64,000 nt of DNA, from positions 1-64,000 of the forward strand of contig DATNQI010000017.1 in the NCBI GenBank assembly GCA_036704125.1, given 5' to 3'. Under the pieces are notes generated by a model. It was not told the origin of the DNA, ran no database searches, and saw nothing but the letters and a program-made list of their open reading frames with translations. A program made the position numbers and the translations under genes. Source of the stretch: Pantanalinema sp. (GTDB lineage: Bacteria; Cyanobacteriota; Sericytochromatia; S15B-MN24; UBA4093). Of this stretch, positions 6,227 through 12,674 are shown piece by piece (position 1 is the stretch's first letter; each line of letters opens with the position of its first letter).

Positions 6227-7351
6227 TCAGGCGCGCCTGACGATGACGCTGCCCACCGAGTAGCCAGCCCCGAAGGACGAGATGACACCGGTTGCGCCCG
6301 GTGCGAGGTCCGCGTGATGCAAGTGGAAGGCGATGATCGATCCGGCGGAGCTGGTGTTGCCGTAGCGATCGAGGATGACCGGGGCCTCCTCGGCGCTCGC
6401 CTCGCGGCCCAGCAGGCGCTTGGCGATCAGCTGGTTCATGCTCAGGTTGGCCTGGTGCAGCCAGAAGCGCGCCATGTCTCCCGGCTGGAGTCCGAGCGCC
6501 TCCATGTGGCTCGCGATGTGCTCGGCCACCATGGGGCAGACCTCCTTGAAGACCTTGCGCCCCTGCTGGATGAAGAGCTTGTCCGGCTGAGCGATGCCGC
6601 TCGCGTCGGTCCGGTTGAGGAAGCCGAAGTTGTTGCGGATGTTGTTGCTGAAGACGGTCGCGAGCTTGCAGCCGAGCACCTCGAAGCGGGCGCTCGCCGT
6701 CGCGAGGTCGGCGCGCTCCAGCACCATGGCGGTGCAGGCGTCACCGAAGATGAAGTGGCTGTCCCGGTCGCGGAAGTTGAGGTGCGCCGAGCAGATCTCG
6801 GGGTTGATGACGAGCGCCGCTCGCGCCTGGCCGGCCTGGATGGCGTTGACCGCGGTCTGGATGGCGAAGGTGGCCGACGAGCACGCCACGTTCATGTCGA
6901 AGGCGAAGCCCTGGATCCCGAGCGCCCCCTGGACCTCGATGGAGACGGCCGGGTAGGGGCGCTGCAGGTTCGAGCAGGCGACCAGCACCATGTCGATGTC
7001 GCATGCCGTGCGCCCGGCGTTCTCCATGGCCTCGCGGGCGGCGGCCACGGCCATCTCGGCCTGCACCGAGAGCGCCTCGTCGGGCCGCTCCGGCAGGGCA
7101 GGGCACATGCGCGTCGGGTCGAGCACGCCTTCCTTGTCCATCAGGAAGCGGCTCCGGATGCCGGAGGCCTTGACGATGAACTCCGCGCTCGATTCCGGGA
7201 GGGCCTGGCGATCGCCACGGGCGATCGCCGCGGCGTGCTCCTGGTTGTGGGCCTGGACGTACGCGTTGAAGGAGGCGACCAGCTCCTCGTTGCTCGCCGC
7301 GTGGGACGGGGTGTAGAGGCCGGTGCCGCTGATGACGACGGGATGCTGCAT
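6227..7351 (-). CDS. beta-ketoacyl-ACP synthase III-like thiolase-fold enzyme
   Basis: 374 residues from the ATG at 7351, longer than classic FabH (about 320). It should condense an acyl thioester with malonyl-ACP. The catalytic triad is visible: Cys in VACSSATFAI, His in WLHQANLS and Asn in YGNTSSAGS. The C-terminal SSFGAGYSVGSV is typical. An upstream in-frame extension of 20 residues (from 7411) has no family similarity; the chosen start MQHPVVISGTG matches the thiolase fold and has GGAAGGCGAG upstream. The gene is convergent with the ene-reductase and lies 69 bp from the MFS gene. No other fatty-acid genes are close, so a specialised acyl product is possible. Confidence 0.88.
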   Translation of the reverse strand: MQHPVVISGTGLYTPSHAASNEELVASFNAYVQAHNQEHAAAIARGDRQALPESSAEFIVKASGIRSRFLMDKEGVLDPTRMCPALPERPDEALSVQAEMAVAAAREAMENAGRTACDIDMVLVACSNLQRPYPAVSIEVQGALGIQGFAFDMNVACSSATFAIQTAVNAIQAGQARAALVINPEICSAHLNFRDRDSHFIFGDACTAMVLERADLATASARFEVLGCKLATVFSNNIRNNFGFLNRTDASGIAQPDKLFIQQGRKVFKEVCPMVAEHIASHMEALGLQPGDMARFWLHQANLSMNQLIAKRLLGREASAEEAPVILDRYGNTSSAGSIIAFHLHHADLAPGATGVISSFGAGYSVGSVIVRRA

Positions 7352-7420
7352 GAGAGGGTCTCGCCTTCCTGGACGATGGGGCCGGGGTTCCTGCCCTCGA
7401 TCATACACCAAGCGGGGCGC

Positions 7421-8644
7421 TCAGCGCCCCCCGGCCGAGGGACGGGCCGCGAGCGAAAGGTAGAGGATCAAGCCGAGCACCCCGCAGCCGCCGACGACCC
7501 CGGCCATGGGCAGGGCGGTGGCGTCGTGAAGCCGACCGACCAGGCCACCCGCCAGGGCCGCGAGGCAGAACTGGAGCGCCCCCATCACCGCCGCGGCGAG
7601 CCCGGCGCGCTTGCCGTGCTCGGAGAGGGCCGCCGCCGTGACGTTGGGGAAGACGAAGCCGAGGGCCGCCAGGTAGCCGAACAAGGGCAGGGCCACCCCC
7701 CAGAAGCCGCCGATCTTTGTGCTCACCAGCGCCGCGAGCGACAGCCCGAAAAGGGCGGGCATCAGGATGGTCAGGCGCAGGATTCGCTCGGGGGCGCGGG
7801 TCCGCAGCATCAGGCCGTTGACCTGGGAGGCCCCGATCAGGCCGAGGGCGTTCGCCCCGAAGATCCAGCCGAAGGCCTCGGCCGGGACCTGGAACAGCTC
7901 GATGAACACGAAGGGCGAGCCCGAGATGTAGGCGAACATGCCGGCCTGGATCGCGCCGCCCGAAAGCGCGAAGCCGAGGAAACGGCGATCGCTCAGCAGC
8001 ACGCGGTAGTCGAGCGAAAGGGAGGCGGCGGGCTCGGCGCGGCGCCGCTCGGCGTCGCGCGTCTCGCTCAGGGCCAAGGCGGCCAGCGCGAGGAGGGTGA
8101 GCCCGAAGGCCACCTGGGCGCCGAAGACGGCGCGCCACCCCAGGGCCGCCATGAGGTAGCCGCCCGCGAGCGGCGCGACGATGGGCGCCACCCCCATCAC
8201 CAGGGTCATCAGCGAGAAGACCTGGGCGGCCTCGCGCGGCGGGTAGAGGTCGCGCACCATGGCGCGCGAGATGACCAGCGCCGCGCAGCCGCCAAGCGCC
8301 TGGAGCATGCGGAACGCGATGAGCGCGGTGATGTTCGGGGCGATCGCGCAGCCCGCCGAGGCCGCCACGTAGAGCACCAGGCCCGAGATGAGCGGTCCCT
8401 TGCGCCCGACCCTATCGGAGAGCGGCCCGTAGATGAGCTGGCCGAGGGCCAGGCCGACGAAGAACAGCGCGAGGGTGAGCTGTACCGAGGCGGTGCTCGC
8501 GCCGAGCTCGCGGGCGATGGTCGGCAGGCTGGGCAGGTACATGTCGATCGACATGGGCCCGATGGCCGTCAGCGCCCCAAGCAAGGGGACCAGGCCGCGG
8601 CCGGCCGTCCGGGCGGGGATGCTCAGGGTGGAGCTCGAACGCAA
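7421..8644 (-). CDS. Bcr/CflA-family MFS multidrug exporter
   Basis: About 407 residues with twelve predicted membrane segments. The N-terminal pattern GPMSIDMYLPSLP is the hallmark of the Bcr/CflA drug-resistance branch. The MFS loop motif GPLSDRVGRKGPL follows helix 2. Proton-driven export of small drugs is expected from the family. The frame is open to a TTG at 8695, but the TTG at 8644 has GAGGG five bases upstream and gives a normal length, so it is preferred. Downstream, 69 bp separates it from the KAS III gene. The substrate cannot be read from the sequence. Confidence 0.85.
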   Translation of the reverse strand: MRSSSTLSIPARTAGRGLVPLLGALTAIGPMSIDMYLPSLPTIARELGASTASVQLTLALFFVGLALGQLIYGPLSDRVGRKGPLISGLVLYVAASAGCAIAPNITALIAFRMLQALGGCAALVISRAMVRDLYPPREAAQVFSLMTLVMGVAPIVAPLAGGYLMAALGWRAVFGAQVAFGLTLLALAALALSETRDAERRRAEPAASLSLDYRVLLSDRRFLGFALSGGAIQAGMFAYISGSPFVFIELFQVPAEAFGWIFGANALGLIGASQVNGLMLRTRAPERILRLTILMPALFGLSLAALVSTKIGGFWGVALPLFGYLAALGFVFPNVTAAALSEHGKRAGLAAAVMGALQFCLAALAGGLVGRLHDATALPMAGVVGGCGVLGLILYLSLAARPSAGGR

Positions 8645-8829
8645 GAAACCCTCGATTCTTACTGGGCGATAGGGCGATGGCGCAGCGCAAAGCAAGGAGC
8701 GGAGCGAGCTTCGGCCACGGTCTTCAATGTTACCATCGATGCTCGCAGGTCTTCACCCCCGTATCCCCCATGGAATCCTCAGCGAGCGAGCAGGCTCGCT
8801 CAGGAAAGCTCAAGCAAGCATGTGGCAAA

Positions 8830-10152
8830 ATGGAAGTCATGAAGACCAAAGTCGCTTCAAATGAGCTGCGCCGAACGCTGATCGTCAACGGCCTTGGCCC
8901 CGCCCTCGTCATCGTGCTGCTTTACGTGATTCTCATCTGGCAGTTCGCCAAGGTCCGGTCCGAGGCCGACGCGGTGACCCACACGGTGCTGGTCCAGGAG
9001 GGGGTCAGTCAGATGGATTCGCTGCTCGCAAATGCGGCCGCGGGCTTGCACGGATACCGTCTCGCCGGCAGGCCCGAATTCCTGCGCTCCTTCACCCAGA
9101 GTCAGGCTCGGGTCGATGCGATCGCTGCCAGCATCGAGGACCTCGTCGCCGATAATCCGTCCCAGAGCGCGGCGATCCGCAAGATTCGCAGCCTCGTCCC
9201 CCACTGGTATCACAACGCAGATTTGAGCATGCGGGTATCATCGCCATCTGCCGCCACCATCCGCTTGATGTTGTCGGCAGACGGCGCACCCATGCTGGAC
9301 GAGATTCATGGACGCCTGCGAGCGATGCACGATCAGGAAGGCCACATTCTTCGGGCGCGTCAAAAGCGCCTCGGCCGTTCCAACTCACTGGCCATGACCC
9401 TCGGGGCCGTCGCCATCCTGCTTGTGCTCGGCTTCTTCGCGCTGTTCAGCTTGAGACAGTTCCGGATCCTCAATCGTCACTTCCAGCAAAACCTGCGCGA
9501 TCTCAGGCGACAGAAGAGCGAGCTCCTGGAGATGACCTGTTCACTCGCGGCCTCGAACCAGTTACTCGAGCGACGCGTCCTGGAGCGCACCGAGGAGCTT
9601 CAGGCCGCCTCTGAAAAGTATCGTCAGCTCGCAGATTCCGATGGTCTGAGCGGGATTCCGAACCGTCGGATCTTCGATGAGTTCCTGAATCGCGAGTGGA
9701 GCCGCTGCGCCCACCAGGGCACGCCCCTCTCCTTGATCATGCTGGATATCGACTTCTTCAAGGACTTCAACGACACCTACGGACATCAGGCGGGCGATGA
9801 CTGTCTGCGGCAGGTCGCCAGGGCCCTCGAAGGCCAGGCCAGGCGCCCGAGCGATCTTGTCGCGCGTTACGGGGGAGAAGAGTTCGGCGTCATCCTCAGC
9901 GATACCGACGCGGCCGGTGCCGAGCGGATCGCCGAGCGCCTCAGGGAGCAGATCGAGGGGCTGGCCATCCCCCACGCCGGCTCGAGAAACGCCCCCTGCG
10001 TCACGATGAGCCTCGGCGTGGCGACCCTCGTGCCGAGCCCGGGGACCGGCCCTAGCCAGGTGGTGGCCCGGGCGGATCAGGCGCTCTATCAGGCCAAGCA
10101 GGAGGGGCGCAACCGCGTCTGCGTGCTGCAGCCAGGCGGGTTAAGCGTTTAA
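8830..10152 (+). CDS. membrane diguanylate cyclase with CHASE3-like sensor
   Basis: About 440 residues. A first membrane helix (about 18-42) and a second (about 185-206) flank a CHASE3-like helical periplasmic domain. A coiled linker (about 215-270) leads to a GGDEF domain. The active-site motif is GGEEF (about residue 347) with the substrate stretch LIMLDIDFFKDFND. An RxxD inhibitory site (RPSD) sits five residues before GGEEF, so product inhibition by c-di-GMP is likely. No EAL domain is present. The frame is open upstream to 8677; ATGs at 8830 and 8839 fit the topology, but neither has a good Shine-Dalgarno, so the start is uncertain. Confidence 0.88.
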   Translation: MEVMKTKVASNELRRTLIVNGLGPALVIVLLYVILIWQFAKVRSEADAVTHTVLVQEGVSQMDSLLANAAAGLHGYRLAGRPEFLRSFTQSQARVDAIAASIEDLVADNPSQSAAIRKIRSLVPHWYHNADLSMRVSSPSAATIRLMLSADGAPMLDEIHGRLRAMHDQEGHILRARQKRLGRSNSLAMTLGAVAILLVLGFFALFSLRQFRILNRHFQQNLRDLRRQKSELLEMTCSLAASNQLLERRVLERTEELQAASEKYRQLADSDGLSGIPNRRIFDEFLNREWSRCAHQGTPLSLIMLDIDFFKDFNDTYGHQAGDDCLRQVARALEGQARRPSDLVARYGGEEFGVILSDTDAAGAERIAERLREQIEGLAIPHAGSRNAPCVTMSLGVATLVPSPGTGPSQVVARADQALYQAKQEGRNRVCVLQPGGLSV

Positions 10153-10169
10153 GCGGGCGGGGGCTGCCA

Positions 10170-10802
10170 TCAAGGTGCGCGGCGAGGAGCCAGGCCTCCC
10201 TGCCGGACATCCTCGAAGTGCCGAAGCAGGGTCGCCGCTTCGGCTGGCGGGTAGCCAGCTTGATCGCAGGCCTCCAGGAGCCGCTCGGGGACCAGCAGCG
10301 GGGCGAGAGGCTGCGAGACCGAGGGCGCGAGCGTCAAGGCGAGGCGGAGCCGGGCCCGGAGCGCGGTGAGCTGCTCGGCGGACGGCGTGCTGCGGGTGGT
10401 GCCCCGGCAGCCAGGCGCTCCGCAGTGGCAGGGGAAGAAGTCGTCCTCTCGCCGGTCCTCGAAGGTGCCGTAGTCGTTGGTCAGCTGCTCGCCGACCCGG
10501 ATGTCCCGGGCGGCCACCTCGAAGCCCTGCAGGGTTCCGAGGCAGTTCGGCTGACAGGAGTGGTTCATCGCGCGGCCCAGATCCCAGATCAGGACGCGGT
10601 TGCCCTCGGCGTCGCCGTAGGTGTAGCGCGCGAGCAGCGCATCGTAGGCGGCAGGCAACGCGGCCACGCGCGCGGGATCGAGCAGCTGGTCGAGCGGGTC
10701 CTGCACCCAGATCACGGTGCCCATGGGAATGGGCGCCGTTGCGACCAGGCCGTGGCCGACGGCGCTATCGATGAAGCGCAGGGCGGTGTCGGGATGGATC
10801 AT
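10170..10802 (-). CDS. SET-domain protein (second of tandem pair)
   Basis: 210 residues. SET-domain lysine methyltransferase motifs are present: GTVIW near the start, NHSCQPN (the AdoMet/pseudoknot motif), ARDIRVGEQLTNDYG (catalytic Tyr) and a post-SET zinc cluster CHCGAPGCRG. The target protein is unknown. The ATG at 10802 lies in an ATGA overlap with the stop of the upstream paralogue, so translation is coupled. Both proteins begin MIHP. Bacterial SET proteins are rare outside a few lineages, and a coupled tandem pair is unusual. The gene converges on the cyclase gene with an 18-bp gap. Confidence 0.88.
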   Translation of the reverse strand: MIHPDTALRFIDSAVGHGLVATAPIPMGTVIWVQDPLDQLLDPARVAALPAAYDALLARYTYGDAEGNRVLIWDLGRAMNHSCQPNCLGTLQGFEVAARDIRVGEQLTNDYGTFEDRREDDFFPCHCGAPGCRGTTRSTPSAEQLTALRARLRLALTLAPSVSQPLAPLLVPERLLEACDQAGYPPAEAATLLRHFEDVRQGGLAPRRAP

Positions 10803-11446
10803 CGGCCGAGCGCCCAGAGCCCCTCGCCGAGCGGTGGCTGTGCTCCGGCGGGTGTGGCCGCCTGGTAGTGACGGCTGCTCGGAAGCGGAACGTCGCGCCC
10901 CTCGCGCAGGGCGTCGGCCAGGACCTGGTCGGCATGGCTCAGCTTGGCGTAGGGCAGGAGGGGCTGCGGCACCGCGAGGGCCCAGCGGAAGGCCTGCGCC
11001 GCCTCGCGGTCCCACTCGCCCCACAGGGAGTCGAGGTCGGTCGCGCTCACGCTGCCGCGACAGCCGGGCGCGCCGCAGGCGCAGGCGAAATCGCCCGTCA
11101 TGTTGAGGGTGCCGTACTCGCAGGTCAGCTGCTCGCCCGGCTGGATGTCACGGACGGCGATCTCGAAGGCCTCCCCGACGCTGCGGCTCGACGGCCGGCA
11201 GGAGTGGTTCATGTAGCGGCCGAAGTCCCAGCACAGGATGAAGTCGCCCGCGGCGTCGACGTAGGCGTACTTCTCGACCTGGGCGCGCAGCAGGTCGGGC
11301 AGGGCGAGGACCTCGCCGGGAGAGAGGACGCGGTCGAAGGCGTCGAGTGCCCAGATGACGGTGCCGCGAGGGATGAAGGCCGTGGCGAAGACCCCGTAGC
11401 CGATCCGGTCGTCGATGTGGCGCAGCTCGGTCGATGGATGGATCAT
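10799..11446 (-). CDS. SET-domain protein (first of tandem pair)
   Basis: 215 residues, paralogous to its downstream neighbour. It shows GTVIWALD, MNHSCRPS, VRDIQPGEQLTCEYG and the post-SET cluster CACGAPGCRG. In NHSCxP the final Asn is Ser (NHSCRPSS), while the paralogue keeps Asn. The C-terminal third is less conserved between the two, which suggests different targets. The start ATG at 11446 is preceded by AAAGG. A likely promoter is TTGACG, 19 bp, TACAAT on the minus strand (11532-11502). A small AdoMet-dependent protein methyltransferase is expected; a host- or histone-like target cannot be inferred. Confidence 0.88.
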   Translation of the reverse strand: MIHPSTELRHIDDRIGYGVFATAFIPRGTVIWALDAFDRVLSPGEVLALPDLLRAQVEKYAYVDAAGDFILCWDFGRYMNHSCRPSSRSVGEAFEIAVRDIQPGEQLTCEYGTLNMTGDFACACGAPGCRGSVSATDLDSLWGEWDREAAQAFRWALAVPQPLLPYAKLSHADQVLADALREGRDVPLPSSRHYQAATPAGAQPPLGEGLWALGR

Positions 11447-11501
11447 GGGGCTGCCTTTCGGTGGATGAAGGCCGGATGAGATTAGGTTAGCTTCTTATTT
11501 T

Positions 11502-11532
11502 ATTGTATCGCGTCGGTCGAGGCATGCGTCAA
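11502..11532 (-). promoter_or_regulatory. promoter of the SET-domain operon
   Basis: TTGACG at 11532-11527, 19-bp spacer, TACAAT at 11507-11502 on the minus strand. The spacer is slightly long. Confidence 0.4.
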
Positions 11533-11536
11533 GAGC

Positions 11537-11566
11537 GAGCGGGCCGCCCGGATGGGCGGCCCGCTC
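11537..11566 (-). terminator. 13-bp hairpin after the lipoprotein gene
   Basis: Arms 11537-11549 and 11554-11566 pair perfectly around a 4-nt loop, 20 bp past the lipoprotein stop. There is no clear U-tract. Confidence 0.55.
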
Positions 11567-11585
11567 GGGTCGAGGGTGGAAGGAT

Positions 11586-12674
11586 TTAGAAGGCGCCGAG
11601 GTAGACGTTGTCGATGACCGGGGCGCTCATCTTGTCGGTGCCGAGGTAGTAGTCGTAGGTGTAGCGGAAGCGAACCTTGACGGTGCTGGTCTTGTAGGCG
11701 CTGAGGTCCACCTCGACGCGCTTCCAGTCGGTCTGGCTGGCGGTCTGGTCGTAGACCTGGGTCCAGGTGGCGCCGCCGTCGGCCGAGGCATCGACCTGGA
11801 ACTTCGCGGTCTTGAAGTAGTACTGGGCGGTGAACTTGGAAAGGTCGAAGCGAAGGGCCGAGCGGGTGTTGGCCGAGAGGTTGGCGTTGCCGGCGAGCGT
11901 CAGGGTGTAGGTGCCGGTCTCGGTGACCTGGCCGGCGGCGTCGCCGGGGGTGGCGCCCTTGCTGCCGCCGTTGGCCGCGAAGGTCGAGGCGGTCCAGTTG
12001 GTGGTCGCCGCGGTGGCGGCGCTGTAGCTGCTCTTGGTCCAGCTCGCCTGCCACTTGGCGAGGCCGCCCTCGAAGTCGTCGCTGAAGGCCGCGGTGACAG
12101 GGGCCGGGGTCGCGCTCGGCGCGGGGGTGGGGGTGGCGACGGGGCCGGGGGTCGCGCTGGGGGCGGGGGTCGGGGGGGTGGTGGGCGTCTCGTCGCCCTC
12201 GATGGTGACGCCGAGGTCGAGGCCGCCGAGGACGGGCTGGTTGGTCTTGAGGTTGATCTTCATCGCCAGCGGGGTGACCTTGCCCTCTTCGACCTGGATC
12301 CCCTCCTGGGTGAGGCCGCCGAGGTAGCCGTAGCTCTGGTCGAGGGCGTCCACCCGGACGGTGTAGGTATCGCCCTTGAGGCCGTTGAAGGAGACGTCCT
12401 TGGACATGGGCCAGCCGATGGTCTGGCTGACGGTGCCCTGCTTGCCGTTGTAGCTGACGACGTGGATCGAGAGGTAGCGGACGTCGCTCGCGGCGGCGGC
12501 GGTCTGGTAGCCGGCGCCCTTGAGGACGATCGAGCCGCCCTGCTGGGCCATATCGAGGGTCATCGACTTGCTGCCGGTAGCGGCGACGGGGGCGAGAGGA
12601 TAGGAACCGCAGCCCGTGAGCGCCGCGATGGCGGCACCGAACACGATGAACTTGCTGGCAGTCTTCTTGAACAT
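11586..12674 (-). CDS. lipoprotein with Pro/Thr linker and C-terminal beta-sandwich-like domain
   Basis: 362 residues from the ATG at 12674. A basic start and hydrophobic stretch end in the lipobox LTGC, so it should be lipidated and exported. Residues about 20-160 form a domain with no recognised family. A Pro/Ala/Thr-rich linker of TPAPSATP-type repeats follows. The last 150 residues (FEGGLAKW, RVEVDLSAYK, VRFRYTYD) resemble secreted jelly-roll/MAM-like carbohydrate or protein binding modules, with the family-typical ending VIDNVYL. A cell-surface adhesion or binding role is inferred. Upstream 12742-12775 carries two CTTAAC repeats 22 bp apart. Confidence 0.75.
   Translation of the reverse strand: MFKKTASKFIVFGAAIAALTGCGSYPLAPVAATGSKSMTLDMAQQGGSIVLKGAGYQTAAAASDVRYLSIHVVSYNGKQGTVSQTIGWPMSKDVSFNGLKGDTYTVRVDALDQSYGYLGGLTQEGIQVEEGKVTPLAMKINLKTNQPVLGGLDLGVTIEGDETPTTPPTPAPSATPGPVATPTPAPSATPAPVTAAFSDDFEGGLAKWQASWTKSSYSAATAATTNWTASTFAANGGSKGATPGDAAGQVTETGTYTLTLAGNANLSANTRSALRFDLSKFTAQYYFKTAKFQVDASADGGATWTQVYDQTASQTDWKRVEVDLSAYKTSTVKVRFRYTYDYYLGTDKMSAPVIDNVYLGAF

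Follow-up and report, generated by a model that had tools for sequence, protein, structure and literature searches.

Neither the SET family and its bacterial members nor the pairing of SET enzymes in eukaryotes is new (PMC3980110, PMC8564726), and one to four SET genes per genome have been reported in more than 500 bacterial genomes (PMC3980110). In the literature cited here, bacterial SET proteins either serve pathogens in modifying the histones of their hosts or, in the case of BurB, methylate methionine (PMC12542666 for BurB). BurB, a SET-domain methionine S-methyltransferase of Burkholderia thailandensis (PDB 9l4t and 9l4v), is 172 residues long and a tetramer by gel filtration (PMC12542666). 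The literature covered, in which subscription journals are little represented and which includes passages of two reviews (PMC10117894, PMC3980110), gave no account of SET genes conserved as a pair in bacteria. G9a and GLP are two paralogous SET enzymes, each active, which work mainly as a heterodimer (PMC8564726). They provide the closest known model for the working of the gene pair described here, the kinship claimed being that of the SET fold only, and the bacterial dimer being putative. G9a and GLP are metazoan, large multi-domain proteins encoded by separate genes.

The window, i.e. the whole stretch of 64,000 nucleotides analyzed, from Pantanalinema sp., carries two overlapping SET genes on the minus strand. 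The first, SET-A (10799..11446), recognized by translation, Pfam, signature table and model, encodes a protein of 215 residues; the second, SET-B (10170..10802), a protein of 210 residues featuring Asn109 and the catalytic Tyr111. Both proteins start with MIHP, and the start codon of SET-B lies over the stop codon of SET-A in an ATGA (10799..10802, minus strand; from sequence and translations). NHSC and CxCGAPGCRG are common to both translations. Residues 16-112 of either protein match the Pfam SET domain (PF00856; 11111..11401 in SET-A, 10467..10757 in SET-B, both minus strand) over positions 1-105 of 105, hence the whole domain, with 48.7 bits for SET-A and 44.3 for SET-B against a curated cut-off of 22.4 bits. 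No NCBIfam family is assigned to either protein. The GC content by codon position (0.71/0.52/0.92 in SET-A, 0.74/0.52/0.87 in SET-B; window GC 67.4%) is as expected of coding frames. The hexamer GAAAGG, read from the sequence 7 nt before the SET-A ATG (11454..11459, minus strand), is presumably a ribosome-binding-site-like element; scanning of window positions 10050-11700 revealed neither promoters nor terminators. The first 139 residues of SET-A and SET-B show 51% identity, and the two genes are the sole SET matches in the 3.5 Mb assembly. Translations and Pfam agree with the preliminary description of two small paralogous SET proteins with MIHP starts, NHSC, a post-SET cluster and an ATGA overlap. 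That the C-terminal parts differ, as also stated there, is true of their sequence and not of their kind, a QPL motif and further helices being found in both.

The pair is flanked downstream by a gene for a CHASE3-GGDEF diguanylate cyclase (window 8677-10152), convergent with SET-B, and upstream by a gene matching choice-of-anchor J weakly. Nothing marks either of these neighbours as an evident target of the pair, and the earlier remark that no target gene is adjacent holds for the window. A Bcr/CflA-type efflux gene and a beta-ketoacyl-ACP synthase III-like gene reside at 6227-8695 on the minus strand.

The same A-then-B arrangement was found at 17 further loci, including loci of Pseudomonadota, Myxococcota and Bacteroidota, making 18 pairs with the window. 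The order is A then B in all 18, and the overlap is of exactly 4 nt in 16 of them (15 of the 17 outside the window), which argues that the pair is more than a chance association. The partners are separated by a 12-nt gap at L025. In a Myxococcota locus (L144:878-2043) gene A is broken by an in-frame TAG, up to which it was entered in the comparisons, and B is open. Ten pairs (L012, L013, L014, L017, L019, L021, L022, L023, L025, L036) are among the best 80, corresponding to 79 loci, of 269 relatives detected by a profile scan, based on a four-sequence alignment, of 84,980 species genomes; loci carrying B only may have dropped out of these 80. Rows without a full-length MIHP domain were dropped from the family table, and near-copies of one locus left out. 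The other pairs (L144, L163, L166-L169, L212) were added by whole-genome samples of 245, 377, 198, 15, 385 and 394 genomes, which overlap in part.

Pairs are rare and patchy across the sampled genomes. In the family of Massilia TS11, 54 of 245 genomes match at a lax cut-off, the pair being found in Massilia TS11 alone and the other matches being weak generic SET hits. At a stricter cut-off, matches were found in 27 of 377 Myxococcota genomes (3 pairs), 2 of 198 genomes of the Aquimonas family (both pairs), 6 of 15 genomes of one alphaproteobacterial order (all pairs), 4 of 385 genomes of the G064 class (3 pairs) and 17 of 394 genomes of the G062 phylum (3 pairs). SET matches occur in 9 of 59 relatives. 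Given this figure and the one to four genes per genome reported (PMC3980110), the view that bacterial SET proteins are rare and mostly single is true only in part. Within the order of the window genome, two of the 10 genomes searched carry the family, the window genome with its pair and G002 with one A-like gene. SET-A of the window is 60% identical to its counterpart in Aquimonas voraii and 44% to that in Cyanobacteria bacterium UBA8530; together with the patchy distribution, these values suggest horizontal transfer. An origin from phages or plasmids was considered and rejected. No full-length relative was found in phages, which gave one weak match (residues 16-114); the 34 matches in IMG/VR all fall within query residues 12-137, and nine plasmid records with relatives, seven of them from Priestia, show less than 60% identity.

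Relatives occurring as single genes were sorted into zinc and no-zinc types by a regular expression, by which a few (e.g. L138, L149) are misfiled. A 73-row tree was derived from the zinc-type rows, all pairs except L212, and 7 of the 49 other singles. All 17 A genes fall within one supported clade of 29 (support 95/87), and all 17 B genes lie across a branch of support 84/93, on the side of which no-zinc single genes and three weakly placed singles are also found. An earlier 80-row tree gave a similar split at lower support (62/88), and the support for the branch setting off all B genes is moderate. In AU tests, the placement of the window A and B as sisters was rejected (p-AU 0.001), that of all B as one clade was not (p-AU 0.34). 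A and B do not fall in unrelated clades; they belong to one family, on the two sides of a deep split. The tree and the AU test support an ancient duplication, the pair having been passed on as a unit across phyla and not made locally. The notion of a duplicated, translationally coupled pair put forward in the preliminary description is sustained, the duplication being moved back in time. The identity matrices of A and B correlate (r 0.67, with 0 of 10000 permutations as high, 11 representative pairs), which shared descent alone may account for.

Twelve singles fall within the A clade, and A-type genes lacking B (e.g. L032, L211) indicate that A does not need B. No single falls clearly within the B group in the 73-row tree, the genome-wide part of which comes from the best 80 of 269 relatives. 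A different SET gene is found within 1.5 kb of 5 of the 12 A-clade singles (L015, L027, L028, L154, L155), and of two zinc-type singles outside the clade (L045, L051). In these B-less loci, the extra SET gene lies on the opposite strand at L015 and L027, on the same strand at L028, L045, L051, L154 and L155. None of the 49 singles failing the zinc-motif test has a different SET gene within 1.5 kb.

G16, G18, N80, H81 and Y111, which make up the AdoMet GxG, the NH and the Tyr after LTx[DE], are invariant in 17 A and 17 B proteins, and the AdoMet pocket has accordingly not been lost in either. The zinc cysteines 83, 122, 124 and 129 are complete in 17/17 A and 13/17 B proteins, C124 being changed to Arg in four related B proteins; both window proteins keep the Cys of NHSC and the CxC...C of this predicted zinc site. 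Q161 of the QPL motif is present in 17/17 B and 16/17 A proteins (the seventeenth is cut short). Of 165 columns, the one that best separates A from B is position 109, two residues before the catalytic Tyr, which is Cys in 17/17 A, Asn in 15 and Asp in 2 of the 17 B proteins. Pair L212, a later addition included neither in the tree nor in the signature table, features Cys in A and Val in B. Over all 18 pairs A has Cys in 18, B has Asn in 15, Asp in 2 and Val in 1; given this Val, Asn/Asp at 109 in B is not an absolute rule.

Position 109 aligns with the Phe/Tyr switch, exemplified by SET8 Y334, DIM-5 F281 and G9a F1152 (PMC3356298), and the canonical Phe or Tyr is absent both from A (Cys) and from B (Asn, Asp or Val). 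The motif-II Tyr of SET lysine methyltransferases maps to column 36 by alignment to KMT2A, and columns 30-39 are devoid of Tyr in all of the 17 A and 17 B proteins. Ten A and two B proteins carry a Phe at column 37, which might be a partial stand-in. Equivalents of the motif-II Tyr are Set1 Y967, DIM-5 Y178 and SET7/9 Y245, and the Set1 alanine mutant is null in yeast (PMC3585878). In yeast Set1, Y1052 precedes Y1054, and Y1052A and Y1052V keep or raise H3K4me3 (PMC3585878), so that small residues at the switch are compatible with activity. Suv4-20, which is devoid of both canonical aromatics, is still a lysine methyltransferase (PMC3874154), and the missing aromatics hence do not exclude a protein substrate for the pair. 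As catalytic and AdoMet residues are kept and the switch residues are of a kind compatible with activity, SET-A and SET-B are probably both active, with differing acceptor geometry.

Lysine is absent from SET-B of the window, which contains 19 Arg, and B proteins from several high-GC genomes are likewise devoid of it. Lysine avoidance as a feature of B was set aside as weak. B lysines number 28 vs. 56.4 expected from neighbouring genes (11 B proteins), yet values are also low in 14 zinc-type singles (40 vs. 66.9) and 38 no-zinc members (320 vs. 386.5), and lysine is not depleted in Bacteroidota B proteins.

The AlphaFold models, both of them confident (pLDDT 93.3 for SET-A, 92.3 for SET-B), align with ASH1L (SET-A: Z 11.4, rmsd 2.6, 129 residues; SET-B: Z 11.9, rmsd 2.7, 132 residues) and with BurB (SET-A: Z 10.2, rmsd 3.1, 125 residues; SET-B: Z 10.5, rmsd 2.3, 123 residues), and many lysine methyltransferases score level with BurB; the further helices in the C-terminal part of both models are hardly probed by these fold listings. 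BurB is the best single-sequence match in PDB of both proteins (E 1.3e-6 for SET-A, 2.8e-10 for SET-B), but a profile of 22 sequences finds KMT2A as close as BurB (1.5e-14 and 2.3e-14). Like the pair, BurB is a small stand-alone bacterial protein with SET and post-SET regions, in which the active-site Tyr comes two residues past a non-aromatic residue (LTMDY); unlike the pair, it aligns by sequence over the second half only, and leaves the C-terminal helices unmatched. The histone-lysine methyltransferases of the ASH1L/KMT2/NSD type share with the pair the zinc fold of SET and post-SET regions (some 120-130 residues aligned, at Z of about 10-12), NHSC and the catalytic Tyr, but the pair lacks their motif-II Tyr, the aromatic residue at the Phe/Tyr switch and the further eukaryotic domains. 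The no-zinc MIHP SET proteins of Bacillota, Bacteroidota and Cyanobacteriota have the MIHP start, WD, NH, catalytic Tyr and QPL in common with the pair; they differ in being single genes, mostly with NHSF, in which the post-SET zinc cysteines are mostly lost, and which often adjoin RimK/GNAT or saccharopine-dehydrogenase-like genes.

Where conserved, the neighbourhood of the relatives is metabolic. Homospermidine synthase (HSS) was the only gene family seen to accompany pairs of more than a single lineage. It is found at two loci, in the order A-B-HSS at L036 and convergent at L025. HSS as an obligate partner was ruled out for the window genome, which gave no PF16653 match, this being the C domain of saccharopine dehydrogenase that the enzyme contains. 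A RimK-like ATP-grasp gene and a GNAT gene or domain lie just upstream, on the same strand, of 12 no-zinc MIHP SET genes (L048, L054, L057, L062, L067, L069, L070, L073, L074, L075, L076, L079); an RLAN domain was found in the RimK-like genes of the two loci scanned. The RimK-GNAT-SET cluster is likely a conserved operon for a biosynthesis in which a SET methyltransferase takes part. The no-zinc SET gene of Bacillota adjoins, in varying orientation, a saccharopine-dehydrogenase/homospermidine-synthase-like gene (L035, L041, L042, L044, L047, L050), the profile of which has homospermidine synthase as weak best PDB match (E 7.5e-5). Literature searches combining RLAN with SET, or homospermidine with SET, returned nothing relevant.

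The reading which we favour, and to which we give about an even chance, is that of a co-translated, co-inherited pair of SET methyltransferases acting together, most likely as a putative heterodimer. SET-A and SET-B would be translated from one message, coupled through the ATGA overlap, and both would be active AdoMet-dependent methyltransferases acting jointly on one substrate or pathway. The putative heterodimer would most likely contain A and B in equal amounts, with A as its core and B as a second subunit depending on A, and the two different acceptor pockets may serve successive methylations or different acceptor sites. Such a heterodimer would agree with the overlap of 4 nt, with the joint inheritance of the genes and with the finding that no B clearly occurs on its own; the idea of two targets would agree with the differing residues of the acceptor pockets.

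An alternative compatible with this and any other reading, and falling just short of an even chance, is that the two proteins are small-molecule methyltransferases like BurB, rather than protein-lysine ones. BurB heads the single-sequence PDB matches of both, the two aromatics contacting the lysine nitrogen in canonical enzymes are missing, and relatives adjoin metabolic genes (HSS at L036 and L025, RimK/GNAT at 12 loci, saccharopine-dehydrogenase-like genes at six). Yet KMT2A ties with BurB at the profile level, the fit of ASH1L to the models equals or slightly exceeds that of BurB, the window genome lacks the C domain of HSS, and the contexts of no-zinc members may not carry over to the pair. 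Sequence and fold do not decide whether the methyl group would go to a lysine of a protein or to a small molecule such as an amine or sulfide.

Alternatively, though this seems rather unlikely, the two could be active enzymes which do not bind each other and are merely co-expressed, working in sequence or on two acceptors. Catalytic and AdoMet residues kept in both, the consistent difference at column 109 and the occurrence of A alone are in line with it; the near-fixed overlap (16/18), and B never being clearly found apart from A, speak for a closer tie. It is improbable that the enzymatic work falls to A, with B as a paralogue in a regulatory or structural role whose own activity is weak or absent, making it in part a pseudo-enzyme. 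B is indeed more variable, A proteins being more alike than B proteins in 118 of 136 comparisons (mean identity 0.572 for A vs. 0.505 for B), four B proteins carry Arg in place of the zinc ligand C124, and B is not clearly found without A; an accessory or decaying subunit would fit the variation and the C124 changes as well as an active enzyme. Against this stands the invariance of Tyr111, N80, H81 and both glycines in 17/17 B proteins. A recent local duplication in the window genome, of no wider meaning, might be imagined from two adjacent and similar genes, but has next to no credibility, as SET-A clusters with its counterparts from other phyla, SET-B lies among the remaining B genes, and the AU test rules it out under the model used.

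The favoured pair may be taken further, in a tentative form more doubtful than probable, to a bacterial SET methyltransferase of two components, in which A and B would be obligate partners in a heterodimer that has passed between phyla by horizontal transfer, and in which different non-aromatic switch residues would direct successive or distinct methylations of one substrate. If true, this heterodimer would be a prokaryotic counterpart of the G9a/GLP-type pairs, alike in its way of working though not through common descent. That members of three named phyla and of the phylum of the window have preserved a SET unit of two genes implies a shared, as yet unnamed bacterial substrate, and the differing switch residues of A and B offer a direct test of how acceptor choice and methyl number are set in SET enzymes.
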